A model generated the notes under the pieces. It ran no database searches and was not told where the DNA came from. It was given only the letters and a program-made list of their open reading frames with translations. A program made the position numbers and the translations under genes. 64,000 nt of DNA from Halovivax cerinus. Lineage in GTDB: Archaea; Halobacteriota; Halobacteria; Halobacteriales; Natrialbaceae. Below, one piece after another: positions 46,076 to 57,627 of the stretch (position 1 is its first letter; every line of letters starts with the position of its first letter). The stretch lies in assembly GCF_024498195.1 (NCBI RefSeq), contig NZ_CP101824.1:992001-1056000 (forward strand). The letters run 5' to 3'.

Positions 46076-46097
46076 TTTCCAGATGAAACAAAGGGGA
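46076..46097 (+). other. ORB-like element in front of orc1
   Basis: TTTCCAGATGAAACAAAGGG matches TCCANNYGAAAYNNNGGGG and ends 12 nt before ATG 46110. An in-frame ATG at 46083 lies inside it, which is one reason to prefer 46110 as start. Binding of Orc1 here could control its own gene. Confidence 0.7.
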
Positions 46098-46109
46098 TAC
46101 GTACGACGG

Positions 46110-47828
46110 ATGGCTGACGACGACTCACACACGACCGACGACGGTGGCATCGGCTCGACTCCCGGCTTTCGCACCGAACCGACGGAGCGCTCACTGACGG
46201 AAGACGGGTCGAACCAGGGGTTGTTCGACGACCTCTTGAGCGGCGAGCCCATCTTCGAGAACAAGGAAGTCCTTCGTCCCTCGTACACCCCGCACGAACT
46301 GCCCCACCGGTCGGATCAGATCAACAAGATGGCGACGATCCTCGTCTCTGCGCTCCGTGGCGAGACGCCGTCAAATATCCTGATCTACGGCAAGACGGGG
46401 ACCGGAAAGACCGCGAGCGCCAAGTTCGTCAGCCAGGAACTCGAACAGACCTCCTCGAAGTACAGCGTCCCCTGCGAAGTCGAGTACATAAACTGCGAGG
46501 TGACCGACACGCAGTACCGCGTGCTGGCACAGCTCGCGAACAAGTTCATCGAGAAGAACCACGAGTGGATCGACGAGCGCGTCGACGAACTCGAGTCGCT
46601 CCGAGAACGGGTCGACGAGACCGATATCGATTCGCCAGCCGACGAATCCCCAGAATCGAGTCAGTCCGTCGACGTGGTCGGATCTCCACCCGAAACGGAG
46701 GGGGTCGACGACGAGAGCGATCCAGCGTCGCAGCGCGCGGAACGCGACGAGGAACCCACAGTTCAATTCCAGGAAGAAACCGACGTTGAGGCCGACGAAA
46801 CACCCACACAATCGGATTCTGTAGTCGAAACTACGGGGGACGAACTCCGCCAGTCGACGCACCCACTCGCGGAGACGCCGTTCGACTCTGTCTCCGACGT
46901 ATCCGAACGAATAGACGAACTCGAAGCCGATCGGGAGTCGTTCGAAGAGGTCCCGATGACGGGGTGGCCGACCGACCGGGTCTACAGCGTCTTCTTCGAC
47001 GCGGTCGACTACTCCGAACGGGTGGTCGTGATCATGCTCGACGAGATCGACAAACTCGTCGAGAAGAGCGGCGACGACACGCTCTACAACCTCTCGCGGA
47101 TGAACTCGGAACTCGACAACTCGCGGGTCTCGATCATGGGGATCAGCAACGACCTCAAGTTCACAGACTTTCTCGACCCGCGCGTGAAGTCCTCGCTCGG
47201 CGAGGAAGAGATCGTCTTCCCACCCTACGACGCGAACCAGCTTCGTGACATCCTGCAACACCGGGCCGAAGTGGCGTTCAAAGACGGTGCACTCTCGCCC
47301 GACGTGATCCCGCTCTGTGCGGCGTTCGCCGCGCAGGAACACGGTGACGCGCGACGCGCCCTCGACTTGCTCCGGACCGCGGGCGAACTCGCCGAGCGCT
47401 CTCAAACGGAGACCATCGTCGAGGATCACGTCCGGCAAGCCCAGGACAAGATCGAACTCGATCGCGTCGTCGAGGTCGTCAGGACACTGCCGACCCAGAG
47501 CAAACTCGTCCTCTTTTCGATCATCCTCTTAGAACAGAACGGCGTCCACAGCATCAACACCGGCGAGGTGTACAACATCTACAAGCGCCTCTGTACGGAA
47601 CTCGATACGGACGTCCTCACACAACGCCGAGTCACCGATCTCATCAGCGAACTCGACATGCTCGGCATCGTCAACGCCGTCGTCGTCTCGAAGGGCCGCT
47701 ACGGTCGGACGAAGGAGATCAGTCTCTCCGTTCCACTCGAAGAGACGGAAGTCGTCCTCCGTTCGGACTCCCGACTCTCCGACATCGACGACGTCCAGCC
47801 CTTCGTACAGGCCCGATTCGACAACTGA
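46110..47828 (+). CDS. orc1: Orc1/Cdc6 replication initiator
   Basis: Binds ORBs and starts replication. 572 residues from ATG 46110. The AAA+ domain has Walker A IYGKTGTGKTASA (near 95), Walker B VIMLDEIDKLVE (near 310), sensor 1 MGISNDLKFTDFL and sensor 2 EHGDARRALDLL. A C-terminal winged helix (about 450-572) binds DNA. Between Walker A and B lies a 130-residue acidic, Asp/Glu/Ser-rich insert (about 165-290), as in the haloarchaeal Orc1 linked to the main origin. An ORB-like site sits just upstream and another 60 bp after the stop. It is 4 kb from the predicted origin, separated by sec11 and polD1. Confidence 0.96.
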   Translation: MADDDSHTTDDGGIGSTPGFRTEPTERSLTEDGSNQGLFDDLLSGEPIFENKEVLRPSYTPHELPHRSDQINKMATILVSALRGETPSNILIYGKTGTGKTASAKFVSQELEQTSSKYSVPCEVEYINCEVTDTQYRVLAQLANKFIEKNHEWIDERVDELESLRERVDETDIDSPADESPESSQSVDVVGSPPETEGVDDESDPASQRAERDEEPTVQFQEETDVEADETPTQSDSVVETTGDELRQSTHPLAETPFDSVSDVSERIDELEADRESFEEVPMTGWPTDRVYSVFFDAVDYSERVVVIMLDEIDKLVEKSGDDTLYNLSRMNSELDNSRVSIMGISNDLKFTDFLDPRVKSSLGEEEIVFPPYDANQLRDILQHRAEVAFKDGALSPDVIPLCAAFAAQEHGDARRALDLLRTAGELAERSQTETIVEDHVRQAQDKIELDRVVEVVRTLPTQSKLVLFSIILLEQNGVHSINTGEVYNIYKRLCTELDTDVLTQRRVTDLISELDMLGIVNAVVVSKGRYGRTKEISLSVPLEETEVVLRSDSRLSDIDDVQPFVQARFDN

Positions 47829-47886: not shown

Positions 47887-47911
47887 AACCCCCAGTATTT
47901 CGGATGGAAAT
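47887..47911 (-). other. ORB-like element downstream of orc1
   Basis: On the minus strand TTTCCATCCGAAATACTGGG followed by GG fits TCCANNYGAAAYNNNGGGG. It lies between the convergent orc1 and sec11 genes. The 223-bp gap holds no gene. Confidence 0.65.
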
Positions 47912-48051: not shown

Positions 48052-49002
48052 TCAACTCGCTCGACGTGAGTGTACCATCCCGCTGACGCCGACCGCCGCG
48101 AGTGGCGTCAGTTCGACCGGCGCGTGGCCGTTTGCGAATAGCTCGTCGAACCACAGTCTGATGTTTCCGAGCAACGGAATCCGGTAGGCGGCTTTCCCCT
48201 CGACCCAGGACGGTTTGACGACGTCGTGGCGTTTGGCACCGTATCCCGGCACCTGATCGTAGCCGCGGTTGGCATCGCCTTTCGTCACGAACCCGGCGTA
48301 GGGGGCCGGGCAATTGGGAAGGTCCGAGCACGAGGCTCCATTCACGTACTGCGGATCGGCCTTCGTCTGCACCCAGTTTTCGCCCCGTTCGACCCAGAAG
48401 GACGCGCGGTGGATCACCGGCGTCGCGTAGTCACTCCCACCGGGCCGGAAGATGATGACGTCGCCTGGCCGGTTGAACTTCTCGTGGCCGGTTTCGCCCG
48501 CCACGCCTTGCGTGACGATGCCGGTGTCTTCGATGGCCCCGTCGCCGACGAGGCGTTCGTCTTCGACGACAAATATCATGTCGCCCGTCTGCATGTTCGG
48601 TTCCATGCTCCCGCTCTCGACGGCGACGAGTGGGGGCCAGACGCCGCTCACGCCGAAGAGAACGAGTGCGATTAGCATCACGAGTCCGACACTCGAGACG
48701 ATATCGCGCGCGTACACGACGGCGCCCGAATCGGCCCGCAAGAACCAGCGGACGAGCCCGTCGTCCTCGATCGAGACCGATGCCGCGTTCAATCGGCCGG
48801 ACGGTTCTGGAGCCGGTGGTGTCTGCGAGCGAGATCCGGACTCCGAACCCGGTAGTGGGGCGTCCGACGCCCCGTTCGTTCGAACGGTCGGTCCGTCGGT
48901 TCCCACCGGCGGATCGTCCGTACGCTCGCGATCGGGCTCGTCGGTCCGCTCGTCCGTTCGATCCGACTCGTTCGGCGTCGAGTCGGATCCCCTGTCGCTC
49001 AT
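48052..49002 (-). CDS. sec11: signal peptidase I (archaeal S26B, Sec11 type)
   Basis: Removes Sec signal peptides at the membrane. 316 residues: a disordered acidic N-terminus (1-75), a membrane helix (SSVGLVMLIALVLFGVSGVW), catalytic Ser in VAVESGSMEPNMQTGD, catalytic His in ATPVIHRASFW (His replaces the bacterial Lys, as in Sec11), and Asp in VTKGDANRGYDQ. A second hydrophobic stretch lies near the C-terminus (VELTPLAAVGVSGMV). ATG 49002 is preceded in frame by a start at 49026; the later one fits the gene's acidic opening. Confidence 0.92.
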   Translation of the reverse strand: MSDRGSDSTPNESDRTDERTDEPDRERTDDPPVGTDGPTVRTNGASDAPLPGSESGSRSQTPPAPEPSGRLNAASVSIEDDGLVRWFLRADSGAVVYARDIVSSVGLVMLIALVLFGVSGVWPPLVAVESGSMEPNMQTGDMIFVVEDERLVGDGAIEDTGIVTQGVAGETGHEKFNRPGDVIIFRPGGSDYATPVIHRASFWVERGENWVQTKADPQYVNGASCSDLPNCPAPYAGFVTKGDANRGYDQVPGYGAKRHDVVKPSWVEGKAAYRIPLLGNIRLWFDELFANGHAPVELTPLAAVGVSGMVHSRRAS

Positions 49003-49239
49003 TGTCCACCCGTTGACGGGCCCCAAAAATCAACCTTCTGCTCCGGCACTGAATCGTTCCTCACGAACGCGCGCGAACGGAACGACCCACCACGGACCGA
49101 CTACGAACGGACGTCAGTGCCCTCACGAGCCTCCAGTCCGGAGAATCCGTACAGTATCGCGTTCTTGGCTGTGAGGGCGATCCGGGTCGTCGAGTGCTCG
49201 ACAGGTACTCGGTGTGTGGCTCTCGTGAACGTCGCGAGT

Positions 49240-49252
49240 CAATACGTTTTTG
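49240..49252 (+). promoter_or_regulatory. TATA-like element deciding the polD1 start
   Basis: aatacgtttttga lies 24-36 nt before GTG 49276 and supports a leaderless GTG start instead of the in-frame GTG at 49117. Confidence 0.45.
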
Positions 49253-49275
49253 ACCGCTGTCGCGAATTCCGTCCT

Positions 49276-50904
49276 GTGCCACTCGAGGGGCCGGCGCGGA
49301 TCGTCCAGACGTTGACCGCAAGAGGATTCAACGCCGATCGCGAAGCGGTGACGCTGTTGGCCGCACAGCCCGATCCCGCAGCGGCGCTCGAACAGGTCCT
49401 CGAGGACGTTCCAGACGAAACGCTGGTTATCAGTGCCGAATCGGTGCGACAGATCGTCGAGACGACGGACACCCAGACGGGTGATTCGACGTCACTGACG
49501 GCCACTGATGACCGAGTCAACCAGTCTGATCGGAAACCGAGATCGGCCCGGACCCAGGACTCGTCGAACCCCGTGTCCGACGACCGAGAATCCCACGACC
49601 CCTCGATTTCGACTCCAGACGTCGATCGAACGGGGACGGACGATCGCGATCACGGTGCAGACGAACCGGCGGGGTTCGAACGATCGGGAGACGTCGACGA
49701 GCGGGACGTACGGATTCGCGGTGACATGACCGGCGAGAGTACCGGAACGGGAGCGTATCGCGATTTCGTCTCCATCTTTCGGGATCGGCTCGATCGCCTG
49801 CAGTCGAAGTTGAGCGGCCGCGTGAATCATCGACCTGCCAGTTCGATCGAGGGGATGCCCGGTGGGAGCGACGTCGCGATGATCGGTCTCGTCAACGACG
49901 TTCGTTCGACGGCGAGTGGACACTGGCTGGTCGAGCTCGAGGATACGACCGGAACGTTCCCGTTTCTGGTGATGAAGGATCGCGAGTACGTCGATCTCGT
50001 CGACGAGTTGCTTCGAGACGAGGTGATCGCGATGGAAGGGACGCTCGCGGACGACTCCGGCATCGCGTTCGTCGACAGTATGTACTTCCCGGACGTGCCG
50101 CGAACGCGCGAGGCCTCGACCGCGGATCGCCACGTCGAGGCGGCGCTGATCAGCGACGTCCACGTCGGTAGCGAGGAGTTCATGGCCGACGCCTGGAACC
50201 GGTTCGCAGACTGGCTCCACGGCGAAGACGCCCAGCACGTCGAGTACCTCTGCATCGCCGGTGACATGGTCGAAGGCGTCGGGGTGTACCCCAATCAGGA
50301 CGAGGAACTCGACATCGTCGACATCTACGAGCAGTACGAGGCGTTCAACGAGTTCTTAAAACGCGTACCCGGCGACCTCGACATCGTCATGATTCCGGGG
50401 AACCACGACGCCGTCAGGCTCGCGGAACCCCAGCCCGGATTCGACGAGCACCTCCGCTCGATCATGTCCGCACACGATCCGCAAATCGTGAGCAACCCGT
50501 CGACGGTGGAGCTGGAAGGCGTCTCGATACTCATGTACCACGGCGTCTCGCTCGACGAGGTCATCGCCGAGCTGCCGGCCGAGAAGGCGAGTTACGACGA
50601 GCCCCACAAGGCGATGTACCAGTTACTCAAGAAACGTCACGTCGCCCCGCAGTTCGGCGGACACACCAGACTCGCGCCGGAAGAGCGCGACTACCTCGTG
50701 ATCGACGACGTCCCTGACATCTTCCACACCGGTCACGTCCACAAACTCGGATTCGGGAAGTACCACGACGTCCTCGCGATCAACTCCGGGTGCTGGCAGT
50801 CCCAGACAGACTTCCAGAAGAGCGTCAACATCGATCCGGACGCCGGCTACGCGCCGATCGTCGACCTCCAGACCCTGGACGTGACGGTTCAGAAGTTCTC
50901 GTGA
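49276..50904 (+). CDS. polD1: DNA polymerase D small subunit DP1
   Basis: Proofreading subunit of the archaeal replicative polymerase D; the large subunit DP2 is not in the window. 542 residues from GTG 49276 (MPLEGPARIVQTLTARGFNA). After a disordered acidic region (75-175) comes an OB fold (VAMIGLVNDVRSTASGHWLV) and a calcineurin-like exonuclease domain with SDVHVGSEEFM, CIAGDMVEGVGVYPNQDEEL, IPGNHDAVRL and TGHVHKLGFGKYHD. All metal-binding motifs are intact. Its 3' side faces the predicted origin. Confidence 0.95.
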   Translation: MPLEGPARIVQTLTARGFNADREAVTLLAAQPDPAAALEQVLEDVPDETLVISAESVRQIVETTDTQTGDSTSLTATDDRVNQSDRKPRSARTQDSSNPVSDDRESHDPSISTPDVDRTGTDDRDHGADEPAGFERSGDVDERDVRIRGDMTGESTGTGAYRDFVSIFRDRLDRLQSKLSGRVNHRPASSIEGMPGGSDVAMIGLVNDVRSTASGHWLVELEDTTGTFPFLVMKDREYVDLVDELLRDEVIAMEGTLADDSGIAFVDSMYFPDVPRTREASTADRHVEAALISDVHVGSEEFMADAWNRFADWLHGEDAQHVEYLCIAGDMVEGVGVYPNQDEELDIVDIYEQYEAFNEFLKRVPGDLDIVMIPGNHDAVRLAEPQPGFDEHLRSIMSAHDPQIVSNPSTVELEGVSILMYHGVSLDEVIAELPAEKASYDEPHKAMYQLLKKRHVAPQFGGHTRLAPEERDYLVIDDVPDIFHTGHVHKLGFGKYHDVLAINSGCWQSQTDFQKSVNIDPDAGYAPIVDLQTLDVTVQKFS

Positions 50905-51067
50905 CACCGAAATCCGCGGTCTACGCTGACGTATCGATCTCGGTCAGGTGACGTATCGATCCCGGACTGGGACCGATTGCGTGTACGAACGTCGATTGCG
51001 AGTGTGATCGTCCGTCGCGTGATCGAAGATGGATTGTACGTGACCGAGAATGGGCTATCGAGAGAGT

Positions 51068-51107
51068 AGGTAGACAGTCGAGAGATAAGGTAGATAGTCG
51101 AGAGATC
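51068..51107. repeat. 20-bp tandem repeat in the origin region
   Basis: aggtagacagtcgagagata (51068-51087) is followed directly by aggtagatagtcgagagatc (51088-51107), 18 of 20 identical. Confidence 0.85.
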
Positions 51108-51374
51108 GAGGGTGGATCCGCTTGGGGTCGTCGGCACTCACGAACCGACGGTCACCGGGTCGATGTCGACCGTCCAAACTCGTGATCGTGTGAATACCAA
51201 AGGGACCTCCAGTCAGGACTGACGGCGTTCGTCGGTCGTGATCGGCTCCGTTGTCGTGATCGACGCAGCTACGGGCCCGTTCTGATCCACCAAGGACATC
51301 GTTCTATCGTACACGCAGTTCCAGGAGATGTAGTCACTCCCGCATCCGGAGGAATGCCGTCGGAAAAGAGGAGG

Positions 51375-51396
51375 CCACCTATGCGAAGGTAGGTGG
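51375..51396. repeat. hairpin in the origin region
   Basis: ccaccta and taggtgg pair perfectly around an 8-nt loop. Confidence 0.7.
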
Positions 51397-51816
51397 TCGA
51401 TGAGAGGGTAACTGTCCGACGGACCAGGGTGGACGAGAAAGAGCTCTCGAAGTTTCGCGCGACGTAATCGGTCGCTGCGATCGTCTGGAGCGGTCCTGGG
51501 AGCGGCCCGTATTCCGTACGACACGTGACATCGCTGAGTGACTCGGTTCGTCGCGTGACGTCTCGATTGTCTTGTGTCAAATGCCGTCGAGACGTGTCGA
51601 TGTCATCGTACCAAGCCACGTGATCCACGACGACCTCTTCCAAGCGACGACGAAGGGGTTCGAACCGCAATTGCGGATCGATCGAGAGGAGATCGACCGA
51701 GCCGCTCGCTGGATCGACTGACGGTACGACGAGGGAATCGTCACGTCCGCTCGGACGATGTTGTGGACCGTTCGGTACGACTGGATCGACGGCACCCGTG
51801 AGGTCAGATCGCCGGG

Positions 51817-51847
51817 AACCCCCCTACCCCTTCGTTTCGACTGGAAC
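51817..51847 (-). other. ORB-like element, left flank of the AT-rich core
   Basis: On the minus strand GTTCCAGTCGAAACGAAGGG followed by GTAGGGGGG; a full consensus match plus an extended G-rich tail. Confidence 0.8.
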
Positions 51848-52044
51848 CGGAAGAGACCCACCCCGCGAGAGTGCTTTCCAATACAGAAATCTTTATACCT
51901 TTCCTTCTGAAACAGTATCCGTAATACAGACAAATAGGGTAGTTTGGTGGGTGTAGGTGTTTTTCATCTAACGTGTTCGCCCGACCGTCGACTCGAACGT
52001 CGGACTGAGTAGTTCGACTCTCACCCAGTCGCCGGTCGGTTGCG

Positions 52045-52073
52045 GGTTCCACCTGAAACAGGGGGGTGGGGGA
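52045..52073 (+). other. ORB-like element, right flank of the AT-rich core
   Basis: GGTTCCACCTGAAACAGGGG followed by GGTGGGGGA; full consensus match and extended G tail, in opposite orientation to the site at 51817. Confidence 0.8.
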
Positions 52074-52353
52074 GCAGTGTCGTCTGACGACGAAGCGATC
52101 TGACAGGCCACGTGCCGAACGGGATCACCGGACGGTCCAGCGTGATCCGTTCGTCTCATCATGCTTAGATTCGTTTCATCACGATCCGATCCGTCTCACC
52201 AGTTAGAACGAATCGAACCGGTTCCACTTCGACGGTTTCCCGAGCTAATGCTCGATTCGGAGCGTCCGCTCGTTTCGAGGTACACTCGTTCGGATCGTCT
52301 CGGGTTCCTCGTGCTGAGGGCGCCAGAGAGTCCGAGGAGTCCGCTCCGGTCCA

Positions 52354-52378
52354 TTCTCCAGTTGAAATGGAGGGGTGT
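52354..52378 (+). other. ORB-like element before oapA
   Basis: TTCTCCAGTTGAAATGGAGG followed by GGTGT fits the consensus. It lies about 100 bp before the oapA start. Confidence 0.7.
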
Positions 52379-52465
52379 CACGATCGGTTGCGAGCGGAGA
52401 CAATCGTCTGACGTAGGCTTAAGTGATTGCGAGACTGTCGTTTGGGCAGACGCACACGCGGGTGC

Positions 52466-52473
52466 AGGAGGTT
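52466..52473 (+). promoter_or_regulatory. Shine-Dalgarno site of oapA
   Basis: aggaggt lies 8 nt before ATG 52481. This is one of the few clear ribosome binding sites in the window, so oapA is likely translated from a leadered transcript. Confidence 0.7.
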
Positions 52474-52480
52474 CCCACAG

Positions 52481-53119
52481 ATGGGTCTGTTAAAAGGATT
52501 GAAAGATAGCATCTCTCGGGCCACCGATCGGCTCTTCTCCGAAACCGAGCCGAAGCGTATCGGGATCTACGGTCCGCCGAACGCCGGCAAGACGACGCTC
52601 GCGAACCGGATCGCACGCGACTGGACCGGTGACGCCGTCGGGACCGAGAGCCGCATTCCACACGAAACGAGACGTGCGAGACGAAAGGAGAACGTCGAGA
52701 TCGAGCGAAACGGCAAGACGGTGACGATCGACATCGTCGACACGCCCGGCGTCACGACGAAGGTCGACTACGAGGAGTTCACCGACGACATGGACAAGGA
52801 CGACGCCGTTCGGCGCTCTCGCGAGGCGACCGAGGGGGTCGCCGAGGCCATGCACTGGCTTCGAGAGGACGTCGACGGGGTCATCTACGTCCTGGACAGC
52901 GCGGAGGATCCGATCACGCAGGTCAACACGATGCTCATCGGTATCATCGAATCGCGCGACCTCCCCGTGTTGATCTTCGCGAACAAGATCGACCTCGACG
53001 AGTCGTCGGTCAAACGCATCGAGGACGCTTTCCCACAGCACCAGACCGTTCCGCTCTCCGCAAAGGAGGGCGACAACATGGACGAGGTCTACGACAACAT
53101 CGCGGAGTACTTCGGATAA
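52481..53119 (+). CDS. oapA: Era-like GTP-binding protein OapA
   Basis: A 212-residue small GTPase beside the origin. G1 is GPPNAGKTTLANRI, G3 is DTPG, G4 is NKID and G5 is SAK; the region DTPGVTTKVDYEEF also matches the family. Its name, origin-associated protein A, comes from its place next to haloarchaeal oriC; the biochemical role is not settled. A strong Shine-Dalgarno precedes ATG 52481. oapB follows 3 nt after the stop. Confidence 0.94.
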   Translation: MGLLKGLKDSISRATDRLFSETEPKRIGIYGPPNAGKTTLANRIARDWTGDAVGTESRIPHETRRARRKENVEIERNGKTVTIDIVDTPGVTTKVDYEEFTDDMDKDDAVRRSREATEGVAEAMHWLREDVDGVIYVLDSAEDPITQVNTMLIGIIESRDLPVLIFANKIDLDESSVKRIEDAFPQHQTVPLSAKEGDNMDEVYDNIAEYFG

Positions 53120-53122
53120 ACC

Positions 53123-53515
53123 ATGCCACAGGCCAAACAACCGGACGACGGCGACGGCGTCCAGATCGACCTCGTGAGCGGCGAGCGAATGGAGGGGCTG
53201 ACCAGCATGGAGAAGATCCGTCTCATCCTGGACGGCGTCCACGACGGAAACATCGTCATCCTGGAGGAGGGGCTCTCGCCCGACGAGGAGAGCAAGCTCA
53301 TCGAGGTGACGATGGCCGAGATCAGCCCAGACGAGTTCAACGGCATCGAGATCGAGACGTACCCGCGATCTGATACGCGCGATACGTCGTTCCTCGGTCG
53401 TCTCGTCGGCGGAGACAGATCGTCGGCCAAACTCACCGCGATCGGCCCGGCGAACCAGATCGAGACGCTCCACAAAGACGAAACGCTCATCAGCGCGCTC
53501 GTCTCTCGCAACTGA
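53123..53515 (+). CDS. oapB: OapB family protein (DUF2073)
   Basis: A 130-residue protein with QIDLVSGERMEGLTSMEKIR, DGNIVILEEGLSPDEESKLI and the C-terminal KLTAIGPANQIETLHKDETL, typical of OapB/DUF2073. The function is unknown, but the gene is almost always between oapA and oapC. Its stop overlaps the oapC start (TGATG). Confidence 0.93.
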   Translation: MPQAKQPDDGDGVQIDLVSGERMEGLTSMEKIRLILDGVHDGNIVILEEGLSPDEESKLIEVTMAEISPDEFNGIEIETYPRSDTRDTSFLGRLVGGDRSSAKLTAIGPANQIETLHKDETLISALVSRN

Positions 53516-54288
53516 TGCCACACCAGTGTACGAACTGCGACCGGCGCTTTCCCGACGGCTCGAAGGAGATGCTCTCCGGCTGTCCCGATTGCGGCGGGAA
53601 CAAGTTCCAGTTCACGCCAGCCGCGAGTGCATCGGACGACGGCTCCAGTGGCGAGGCGACCCCATCGTCGGAATCTGAACAATCGGCTGATGCGACGTCG
53701 GCTGCGGACCAGGCCCCGACGCCGAACACCGACACGTCGGTACAAGCCCCCGATCGCGAGTGGCCGGAGACGGCGCGCCGACCGGCCGAGAAGGACGGCC
53801 GACTCGGCGGATCACTTGCAGACGAGTCCGCCGCACGAGCGGGCACTGACGCGATGGCCGACGATTTCGAGTGGGTCGAGGGCGACGAGGACGACGCGCA
53901 GGCGTCCGCCCGCAGTTCCGTCGTCTCCCCGGACGAGCTCCCGTCACACGGTGATTCGACCGCCGATCGAGCCGGGGACGAGCCGCCGAATTCGACCGGA
54001 CCGAACGCCGATGGGCGTCCCGGCGAAGACGCCGAGTCGACGTCCGACGATCACCACACTGCGCCGCCGGAGAACGGACGCGTGGTCAGCGAACCCGAAG
54101 CAGACCAGCCTTCGATCGAGCAACTCCGGGCGGAACTCAATCAGCAGTTCGAGAGCATCAAGATCGTCAACCCCGGCCAGTACGAACTCAACCTGATGGA
54201 ACTGTACGACCGGGAAGAACACATCGTCTCCCTCCAGGAGGACGGTCGCTACGTCATCAACGTTCCCGAGAGCTGGCACGATTCCTGA
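53515..54288 (+). CDS. oapC: OapC zinc-ribbon protein
   Basis: A 257-residue protein. The N-terminal zinc ribbon has CTNCDRRFPDGSKEMLSGCP followed by DCGG. A long acidic, Pro/Ser/Thr-rich linker runs from 40 to 195. The C-terminal domain (EQLRAELNQQFESIKIVNPG; YELNLMELYDREEHIVSLQE) is the conserved OapC core. Translation is coupled to oapB. Its stop codon lies in the first unit of a 25-bp tandem repeat. Confidence 0.93.
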   Translation: MPHQCTNCDRRFPDGSKEMLSGCPDCGGNKFQFTPAASASDDGSSGEATPSSESEQSADATSAADQAPTPNTDTSVQAPDREWPETARRPAEKDGRLGGSLADESAARAGTDAMADDFEWVEGDEDDAQASARSSVVSPDELPSHGDSTADRAGDEPPNSTGPNADGRPGEDAESTSDDHHTAPPENGRVVSEPEADQPSIEQLRAELNQQFESIKIVNPGQYELNLMELYDREEHIVSLQEDGRYVINVPESWHDS

Positions 54289-54359
54289 CGGACTCGCGGA
54301 CATCACCTCTTGACGGACTCGCGGACATCGCCTCCTGACGGACTCGCGGACCCACCTCC
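54286..54359. repeat. 25-bp tandem repeat, three units, at the oapC stop
   Basis: tgacggactcgcggac begins units at 54286, 54311 and 54336; the units differ at a few 3' bases (catcacctct, catcgcctcc, ccacctcc). The first tga is the oapC stop codon. Short tandem iterons near an origin can bind proteins, but none is known for this sequence. Confidence 0.85.
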
Positions 54360-54522: not shown

Positions 54523-54549
54523 ACCCACCCCTCTGTTTCATCTGGAACT
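54523..54549 (-). other. ORB-like element
   Basis: On the minus strand GTTCCAGATGAAACAGAGGG followed by GTGGGT; full consensus match. Confidence 0.8.
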
Positions 54550-54604: not shown

Positions 54605-54632
54605 TTTCTCCACCCGAAATTGAGGGGTGGGT
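54605..54632 (+). other. ORB-like element
   Basis: TTTCTCCACCCGAAATTGAG followed by GGGTGGGT; full consensus match, inverted relative to the site 55 bp to its left. Confidence 0.8.
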
Positions 54633-57436: not shown

Positions 57437-57460
57437 AACCCCCTTATTTCACCTGGAAAC
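57437..57460 (-). other. ORB-like element
   Basis: On the minus strand TTTCCAGGTGAAATAAGGGG followed by GTT; full consensus match. Confidence 0.75.
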
Positions 57461-57600: not shown

Positions 57601-57627
57601 TGACCCCTCCTCTTCAGGTGGAGATTT
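57601..57627 (-). other. ORB-like element, weaker
   Basis: On the minus strand TCTCCACCTGAAGAGGAGGG followed by GTCA; one core base differs (GAAG for GAAA). Confidence 0.55.

Follow-up and report, generated by a model that had tools for sequence, protein, structure and literature searches.

A Predicted oriC1-Type Replication Origin Between polD1 and oapA in Halovivax cerinus, and the Inverted Initiator Gene Block Beside It

The gap between polD1 and oapA

The DNA analysed here, hereafter the window, is a 64-kb stretch of Halovivax cerinus (family Natrialbaceae) spanning bases 992001-1056000 of one 3,902,757-bp contig. On its forward strand lies orc1/cdc6-1, encoding an initiator of 581 amino acids (46083..47828; NF001625, 652.7 bits against a cut-off of 501), followed by a reverse-strand gene of conserved position for a sec11-type signal peptidase (48052..49026), whose score of 50.8 bits falls just below the TIGR02228 cut-off of 51.85, and by forward-strand polD1, encoding the small subunit of DNA polymerase D (49228..50904; NF003116, 933 bits). 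Further along the forward strand are the oapA/arvA GTPase gene (52481..53119; TIGR00231, MMR_HSR1), oapB (53123..53515; PF09846) and oapC (53515..54288; PF09845). Between the polD1 stop (50904) and the oapA ATG (52481), which is preceded by a Shine-Dalgarno-like GGAGGT, 1576 bp (50905-52480) contain no evident gene, in agreement with an earlier sequence-only reading that had described a gene-free gap of 1.6 kb and predicted the main replication origin within it.

Several observations concern the margins of this gap. The oapA promoter and leader at 52405-52480 (GTCTGACGTAGGCTTAAGTG ... GGAGGTT) are strongly conserved in all five genus members, and three 25-bp tandem repeats (TCCTGACGGACTCGCGGACATCACC) are found at the end of oapC (54283-54359). 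Elsewhere oapA is itself split at the P-loop region, by approximately 470 additional amino acids, in frame, in L064 (G076) and by approximately 180 in L087 (G007), and these extra sequences are perhaps inteins. A structured RNA of known type was considered for the gap and rejected, there being no Rfam match between 50 and 55 kb.

Two outward-facing ORBs with extended G tails lie in the gap, as the sequence-only reading had proposed, with their G strings on the outer sides. The left one (51826-51846, reverse strand) scores 39.2 bits and, with its leftward G string (GTTCCAGTCGAAACGAAGGGGTAGGGGGG, 51819..51847), is conserved in all 14 aligned cores of the same family; the right one (52047-52067, forward strand) scores 34.6 bits and, with its rightward G string (GTTCCACCTGAAACAGGGGGGTGGGGG, 52046..52072), aligns with the family cores. 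The third ORB reported before oapA is likewise present on the forward strand (52356-52376, feature 52356..52378), where both the consensus and the matrix match it (33.4 bits), and two of the four congeners have a comparable forward ORB, placed at -263/-264. These scores derive from a matrix of 27 positions built from 150 haloarchaeal sites that match a strict pattern, the scored ORBs of the window among them. Shuffled 64-kb windows yielded 0.1 matrix matches at 10 bits or more and none at 12 or more, and a 21-letter consensus matched nine window sites at 16 or more positions, where shuffled sequence would give 0.02; ORBs of such quality are not expected by chance in 64 kb. The strict pattern itself (YTCCANNYGAAAYNNNGGGGK) has 13 copies in the 3.9-Mb chromosome, all at 970-1084 kb, while its reversed form, used as a control, has none in the whole chromosome. 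Within the window, ORBs beyond the gap lie at 46077, 46684, 47889, 54527/54608 and 57438.

Enclosed by the outward pair is an AT-rich element (51870..51977), the presumed unwinding element (DUE) and one of two such stretches in the 64 kb. Its 95-bp core, placed at 51878-51972 by the sequence-only reading, is 63.2% A+T against 33.7% for the window (G+C 66.3%), a level reached at only one other stretch in the 64 kb. On the left side of the DUE, alignment of cores reveals a conserved forward-strand element resembling an ORB half-site (GAAACAGTATCCGTA, 51909..51923): GAAACAGTATCCGYA is conserved approximately 73 bp inside the left ORB across 14 family cores, and the element core N-A-[TC]-CCG-[CT]-A occurs in 53 of 103 cores at a median of 73 bp from the left ORB; on the opposite strand it is seen in 6 of the 103. 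The core is short, with a spacing of 221 bp versus 295-337 bp in most of the family, and lacks both the canonical G-rich inner repeat and the CTAG repeats. In place of the former, the family alignment reveals nothing more than ACCCACCCC at the left side and GGTGGGTG at the right, in opposite polarity; GGGGAGGG is found in 48 of the 103 cores. CTAG/TTACTAG repeats are common in the AT-rich element of relatives (L050-L062; 3.8 per core versus 1.3 when shuffled), and there are no copies at 51847-52046 of the window.

Two further elements had been counted among the parts of the origin, and probably neither is one. The tandem 20-bp repeats do exist (51058-51106, 2.5 x 20 bp, accompanied by 2 x 22 bp at 50927-50970), but they stand 700-900 bp beyond the ORB pair, and four congeners lack them. 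The sequence CCACCTA-N8-TAGGTGG at 51375-51396 is probably the hairpin that was meant; its occurrence is at chance level, with one seen and 0.8 expected, and it too is unconserved in those congeners. Apart from it a single candidate fold was seen, close to the core, with a z of -1.35.

Comparison with oriC1 loci and the inverted block

The locus was compared with approximately 20 kb around oapA in 40 genomes of the order and with the region around polD1 in 80 named genomes, among which the loci nearest to it are natrialbaceal. An outward ORB pair upstream of oapA was present at 103 of 111 haloarchaeal loci, with a spacing of 179-607 bp (median 277), which identifies the locus as oriC1, an established kind of origin. 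Both ORBs are also kept across the alignment of 14 family cores (the window and 13 others), so that the window holds an ortholog of the haloarchaeal oriC1. The defining features are present: inverted outward ORBs with an extended G string (51826-, 52047+), an AT-rich stretch of 63% between them, an oriC1-type Orc1/Cdc6 encoded at the locus (NF001625 above cut-off), and the shared block of gbp(oapA), cdc6, sec and polD1, whose four genes span approximately 7 kb, with orc1-1, sec11 and polD1 no more than 6 kb from the origin.

The departure from type is that the origin is not directly beside orc1/cdc6; in all five genus members sec11 and polD1 intervene, and the locus is therefore filed as a rearranged variant of oriC1. 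Location in cis beside cdc6 has been found experimentally to be unnecessary for ARS activity (PMC3936714). The sequence-only reading had likened the gap to the known haloarchaeal oriC1 architecture, and this holds for the ORBs, the AT-rich element and the oapABC neighbourhood; it fails for gene order, since polD1 replaces orc1 beside the origin.

Characterised oriC1 loci bear out the comparison that the sequence-only reading had suggested, having the same ORB family, a pair around AT-rich DNA and oapA as neighbour. Two inverted ORBs flanking AT-rich DNA make up a minimal oriC1 in Haloarcula hispanica that is capable of autonomous replication; in plasmid assays neither ORB and neither G string was dispensable, and an inner G-rich repeat acted as an enhancer (PMC3936714). 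The H. cerinus locus shares with that oriC1-cdc6A the inverted ORBs, the extended halophile G string, the AT-rich DNA, an initiator of the orc1-1 family and a flanking gene for a GTP-binding protein (oapA), but differs in having polD1 rather than cdc6 beside the origin, and in that the G-rich inverted repeat (the enhancer) is missing or opposite in polarity (PMC3936714). Published descriptions place oriC1 between cdc6 and the gene for a GTP-binding protein, and put sec and polymerase genes on the far side of cdc6 (PMC4010727). Against this gbp-cdc6-sec-polA context (PMC4010727, Fig. 2; PMC3528665), the genes, the ORB family and the inverted ORBs are the same, while the order and orientation of three genes, and an additional ORB pair downstream of oapC, set H. 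cerinus apart.

The usual order, polD1(-) sec11(+) orc1(-) origin oapA(+), was found at all 67 named loci with the four genes in range, and also at nearly all loci of the 40-genome set with orc1 beside oapA. In H. cerinus the block of three genes, with sec11 in its middle, is inverted between the left flank of the origin and the gene next to ask, with the result that polD1 adjoins the origin and orc1 points at it. All five genus genomes (the window and four congeners) carry this arrangement, for which reason an assembly error was rejected as its cause, and among the haloarchaeal loci compared it occurs at none outside the genus. Inverted repeats mediating the event were sought and rejected, the junctions having only one common 11-mer, which is at chance level. 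A distance of 5.7 kb separates the orc1 start from the left core ORB, toward which orc1 is transcribed, so that orc1 and polD1 would probably run head-on to the leftward fork. The core is thus an ordinary oriC1, and what is new is the inverted initiator cassette; the openly accessible literature yielded no earlier report of such a rearrangement in Halovivax, and none of ORBs within the polD1 gene.

Within one genus, then, a natural rearrangement has parted an origin from its initiator gene: the cis core remained with oapA, and the ORB at the orc1 start codon travelled with orc1. In a genome of the same family (G016, L056) the core is beside oapA with no orc1, sec11 or polD1 within approximately 9 kb, so that the core may have parted from the initiator gene on more than one occasion; a polD1-type ORB pair lies approximately 155 kb from that core.

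Initiation at the core

Judged by ORB consensus, outward pair and neighbouring genes, the prediction of a replication origin is upheld, with the locus orthologous to the haloarchaeal oriC1. The gap is most likely the place where copying of the H. cerinus chromosome starts, and it may also be the main origin, as strict ORBs occur nowhere else on the chromosome than in its surroundings.

Base skew was sampled in 69 evenly spaced stretches representing approximately 31% of the chromosome, with a resolution of a few hundred kb. When arms are defined by the locus and its antipode, keto skew differs between them (t = 2.98, p = 0.004), and the best keto-skew break falls at 1.12-1.14 Mb (permutation p = 0.01), while GC skew alone is not significant between the arms (p = 0.13, 69 samples). 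The check that the sequence-only reading had proposed, a shift in skew at the locus, thus turns out weakly in its favour through the keto sign change near 1.1 Mb, and not through GC skew alone. The skew agrees as well with 1.326 Mb, the site of a further orc gene, as with 1.04 Mb; position 0, near another orc gene, does not fit.

These two other chromosomal orc genes, at contig positions 0.2 kb and 1,326 kb, encode proteins approximately 27-32% identical to Orc1-1. A scan of the whole chromosome found no strict ORBs near either, and a second ORB-type origin at those genes was therefore rejected. Upstream of the orc gene at 1.326 Mb a 25-nt sequence occurs twice in direct orientation, the copies being separated by 59 bp (L179:7734-7817); it is not ORB-like.

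The scan also bears on the proposal that the gap is a relic, its ORB cluster kept since the inversion only as a site of Orc1 titration or regulation while replication starts elsewhere, for example near the orc gene at 0.2 kb or that at 1,326 kb. Such a proposal could draw upon the shortness of the core without G-rich enhancer or CTAG repeats, upon a skew equally compatible with 1.33 Mb, and upon the dormant origins known in Haloferax mediterranei (PMC4595724). We regard it as very improbable, however, given that the other orc genes are without strict ORBs and that the core pair and DUE, including a high-scoring G string, are kept in all five genus members.

Under the preferred reading, in which the gap is a working oriC1, Orc1-1 (from 46083-47828) would bind the two outward ORBs, with its winged helix on TTCCA/GAAAC and its AAA+ domain on the G string. 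Bound Orc1-1 would deform and open the AT-rich DNA between the ORBs, after which MCM would be loaded and two forks would depart.

ORBs outside the core

ORBs are also associated with orc1 itself. One straddles its start codon (46077..46097, forward strand), and an ORB within 150 nt of the orc1 start is found at 70 of 108 loci, invariably in the orientation of the gene; this ORB is likely autoregulatory. A second, matched by consensus and matrix, lies inside the coding sequence, in the part that encodes an insert (46684..46704, forward strand), as is the case at 55 of 108 loci, and a weak ORB sits just downstream (47889..47909, reverse strand; 18.2 bits), with similar sites in L176 and L177. 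This insert, of approximately 135 amino acids, interrupts the AAA+ domain of Orc1-1 at about residues 152-288; ORBs are embedded in the DNA that encodes it, and the chromosomal Orc1 paralogs align on both sides of this insert.

Of 115 haloarchaeal polD1 loci, 81 carry an outward ORB pair within the coding sequence of the gene (e.g., L050, L051, L094, L118). It falls in a linker that is variable and hydrophilic, and its two ORBs are in nearly every case 57 bp apart; some Haloferax no longer have it. In congeners the pair scores 18 to 34 bits; in the window only a decayed remnant is left (49598..49618, reverse strand; 14.1 bits), its right-hand partner having been lost. Since the linker peptide DPSVSTG...PVETEG is recurrent, these satellite ORBs might be a coincidence driven by the protein, the peptide happening to be encoded by ORB-like DNA. 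Yet in genes picked by peptide alone, codons are near-fixed against strong bias (GTT 61/62, background 7%; ACT 58/58, 4%; GGA 55/57, 7%; CCA 70/70, 6%; GAA 70/70, 24%), which argues that constraint acts on the DNA; binomial p-values for these codons overstate independence because the genomes, though drawn from several families, are related. Moreover, ORB-like sites are found where that peptide is absent, both between genes and at the starts of orc1 genes, and we give the coincidence very little credence. A pair maintained at the DNA level across haloarchaea would tie initiator binding to a replicative polymerase gene.

Downstream of oapC lies another outward pair, specific to the genus and 81-85 bp apart in all five members (54527..54547, reverse strand, 35.4 bits; 54608..54628, forward strand, 30.5 bits). 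Its strength and conservation might suggest that the whole region from 46 to 58 kb is one extended origin, with the 54527/54608 pair as a second site of initiation. Against this, the 60 bp between the two ORBs are not AT-rich, and they are spaced 81 bp apart versus at least 179 bp in cores; such an origin seems to us quite unlikely, and the pair is described here as initiator boxes near an origin. Farther out, an ORB lies downstream of a methyltransferase gene (57438..57458, reverse strand; 30.2 bits), with a weaker partner at 57603-57623 (16.8 bits) and counterparts in L049 and L175.

Taken together, the best explanation is, with high confidence, that oriC1 lies in the gap, that the cassette is inverted, and that the satellite ORBs (those at the start and in the body of orc1, the pair downstream of oapC and those in the polD1 of relatives) most likely bind Orc1. 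Bound there, Orc1 would be autoregulated or titrated from the core, a role modelled on oriC2D of H. hispanica, an ORB-rich titration region (PMC3936714). As in oriC2D, initiator boxes lie beside an origin and have no AT-rich core, but there the initiator and ORB family are others and the boxes are intergenic, downstream of cdc6E, whereas here they lie partly in coding sequence, with titration a suggested role. The datA locus and the scattered DnaA boxes of E. coli likewise lie away from oriC and could titrate the initiator; that initiator is unrelated, and the parallel is one of analogy only. The system offers a ready means of asking whether archaea, like bacteria, titrate their initiator.

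Across 25 genomes of the order (single-contig or largest-contig, with a few sequence sizes rounded), strict ORBs number 98 at distances of up to 10 kb from the core and 10 at more than 200 kb; in between, at 10-200 kb, there are 56, where a uniform distribution would give 7.5. Haloarchaeal Orc1-1 could work through an origin-centred field of boxes rather than a single origin, the boxes serving as titration or replication-timed regulatory sites in replication genes and in approximately 200 kb around oriC1, a tentative reading that we hold to be a serious possibility somewhat short of probable. ORBs would then be under selection inside the orc1 start and body, polD1 and, in this genus, hef, and following inversion of the cassette the polD1 pair would have decayed while a pair arose behind oapC.

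The linker of hef, encoding an ERCC4-type helicase-nuclease, contains an ORB pair 80 bp apart (contig 972789-972889; L180:8790-8890). It is present in four of the five genus members, among them G117, where hef has been relocated together with the pair and lies 464 kb from the origin.
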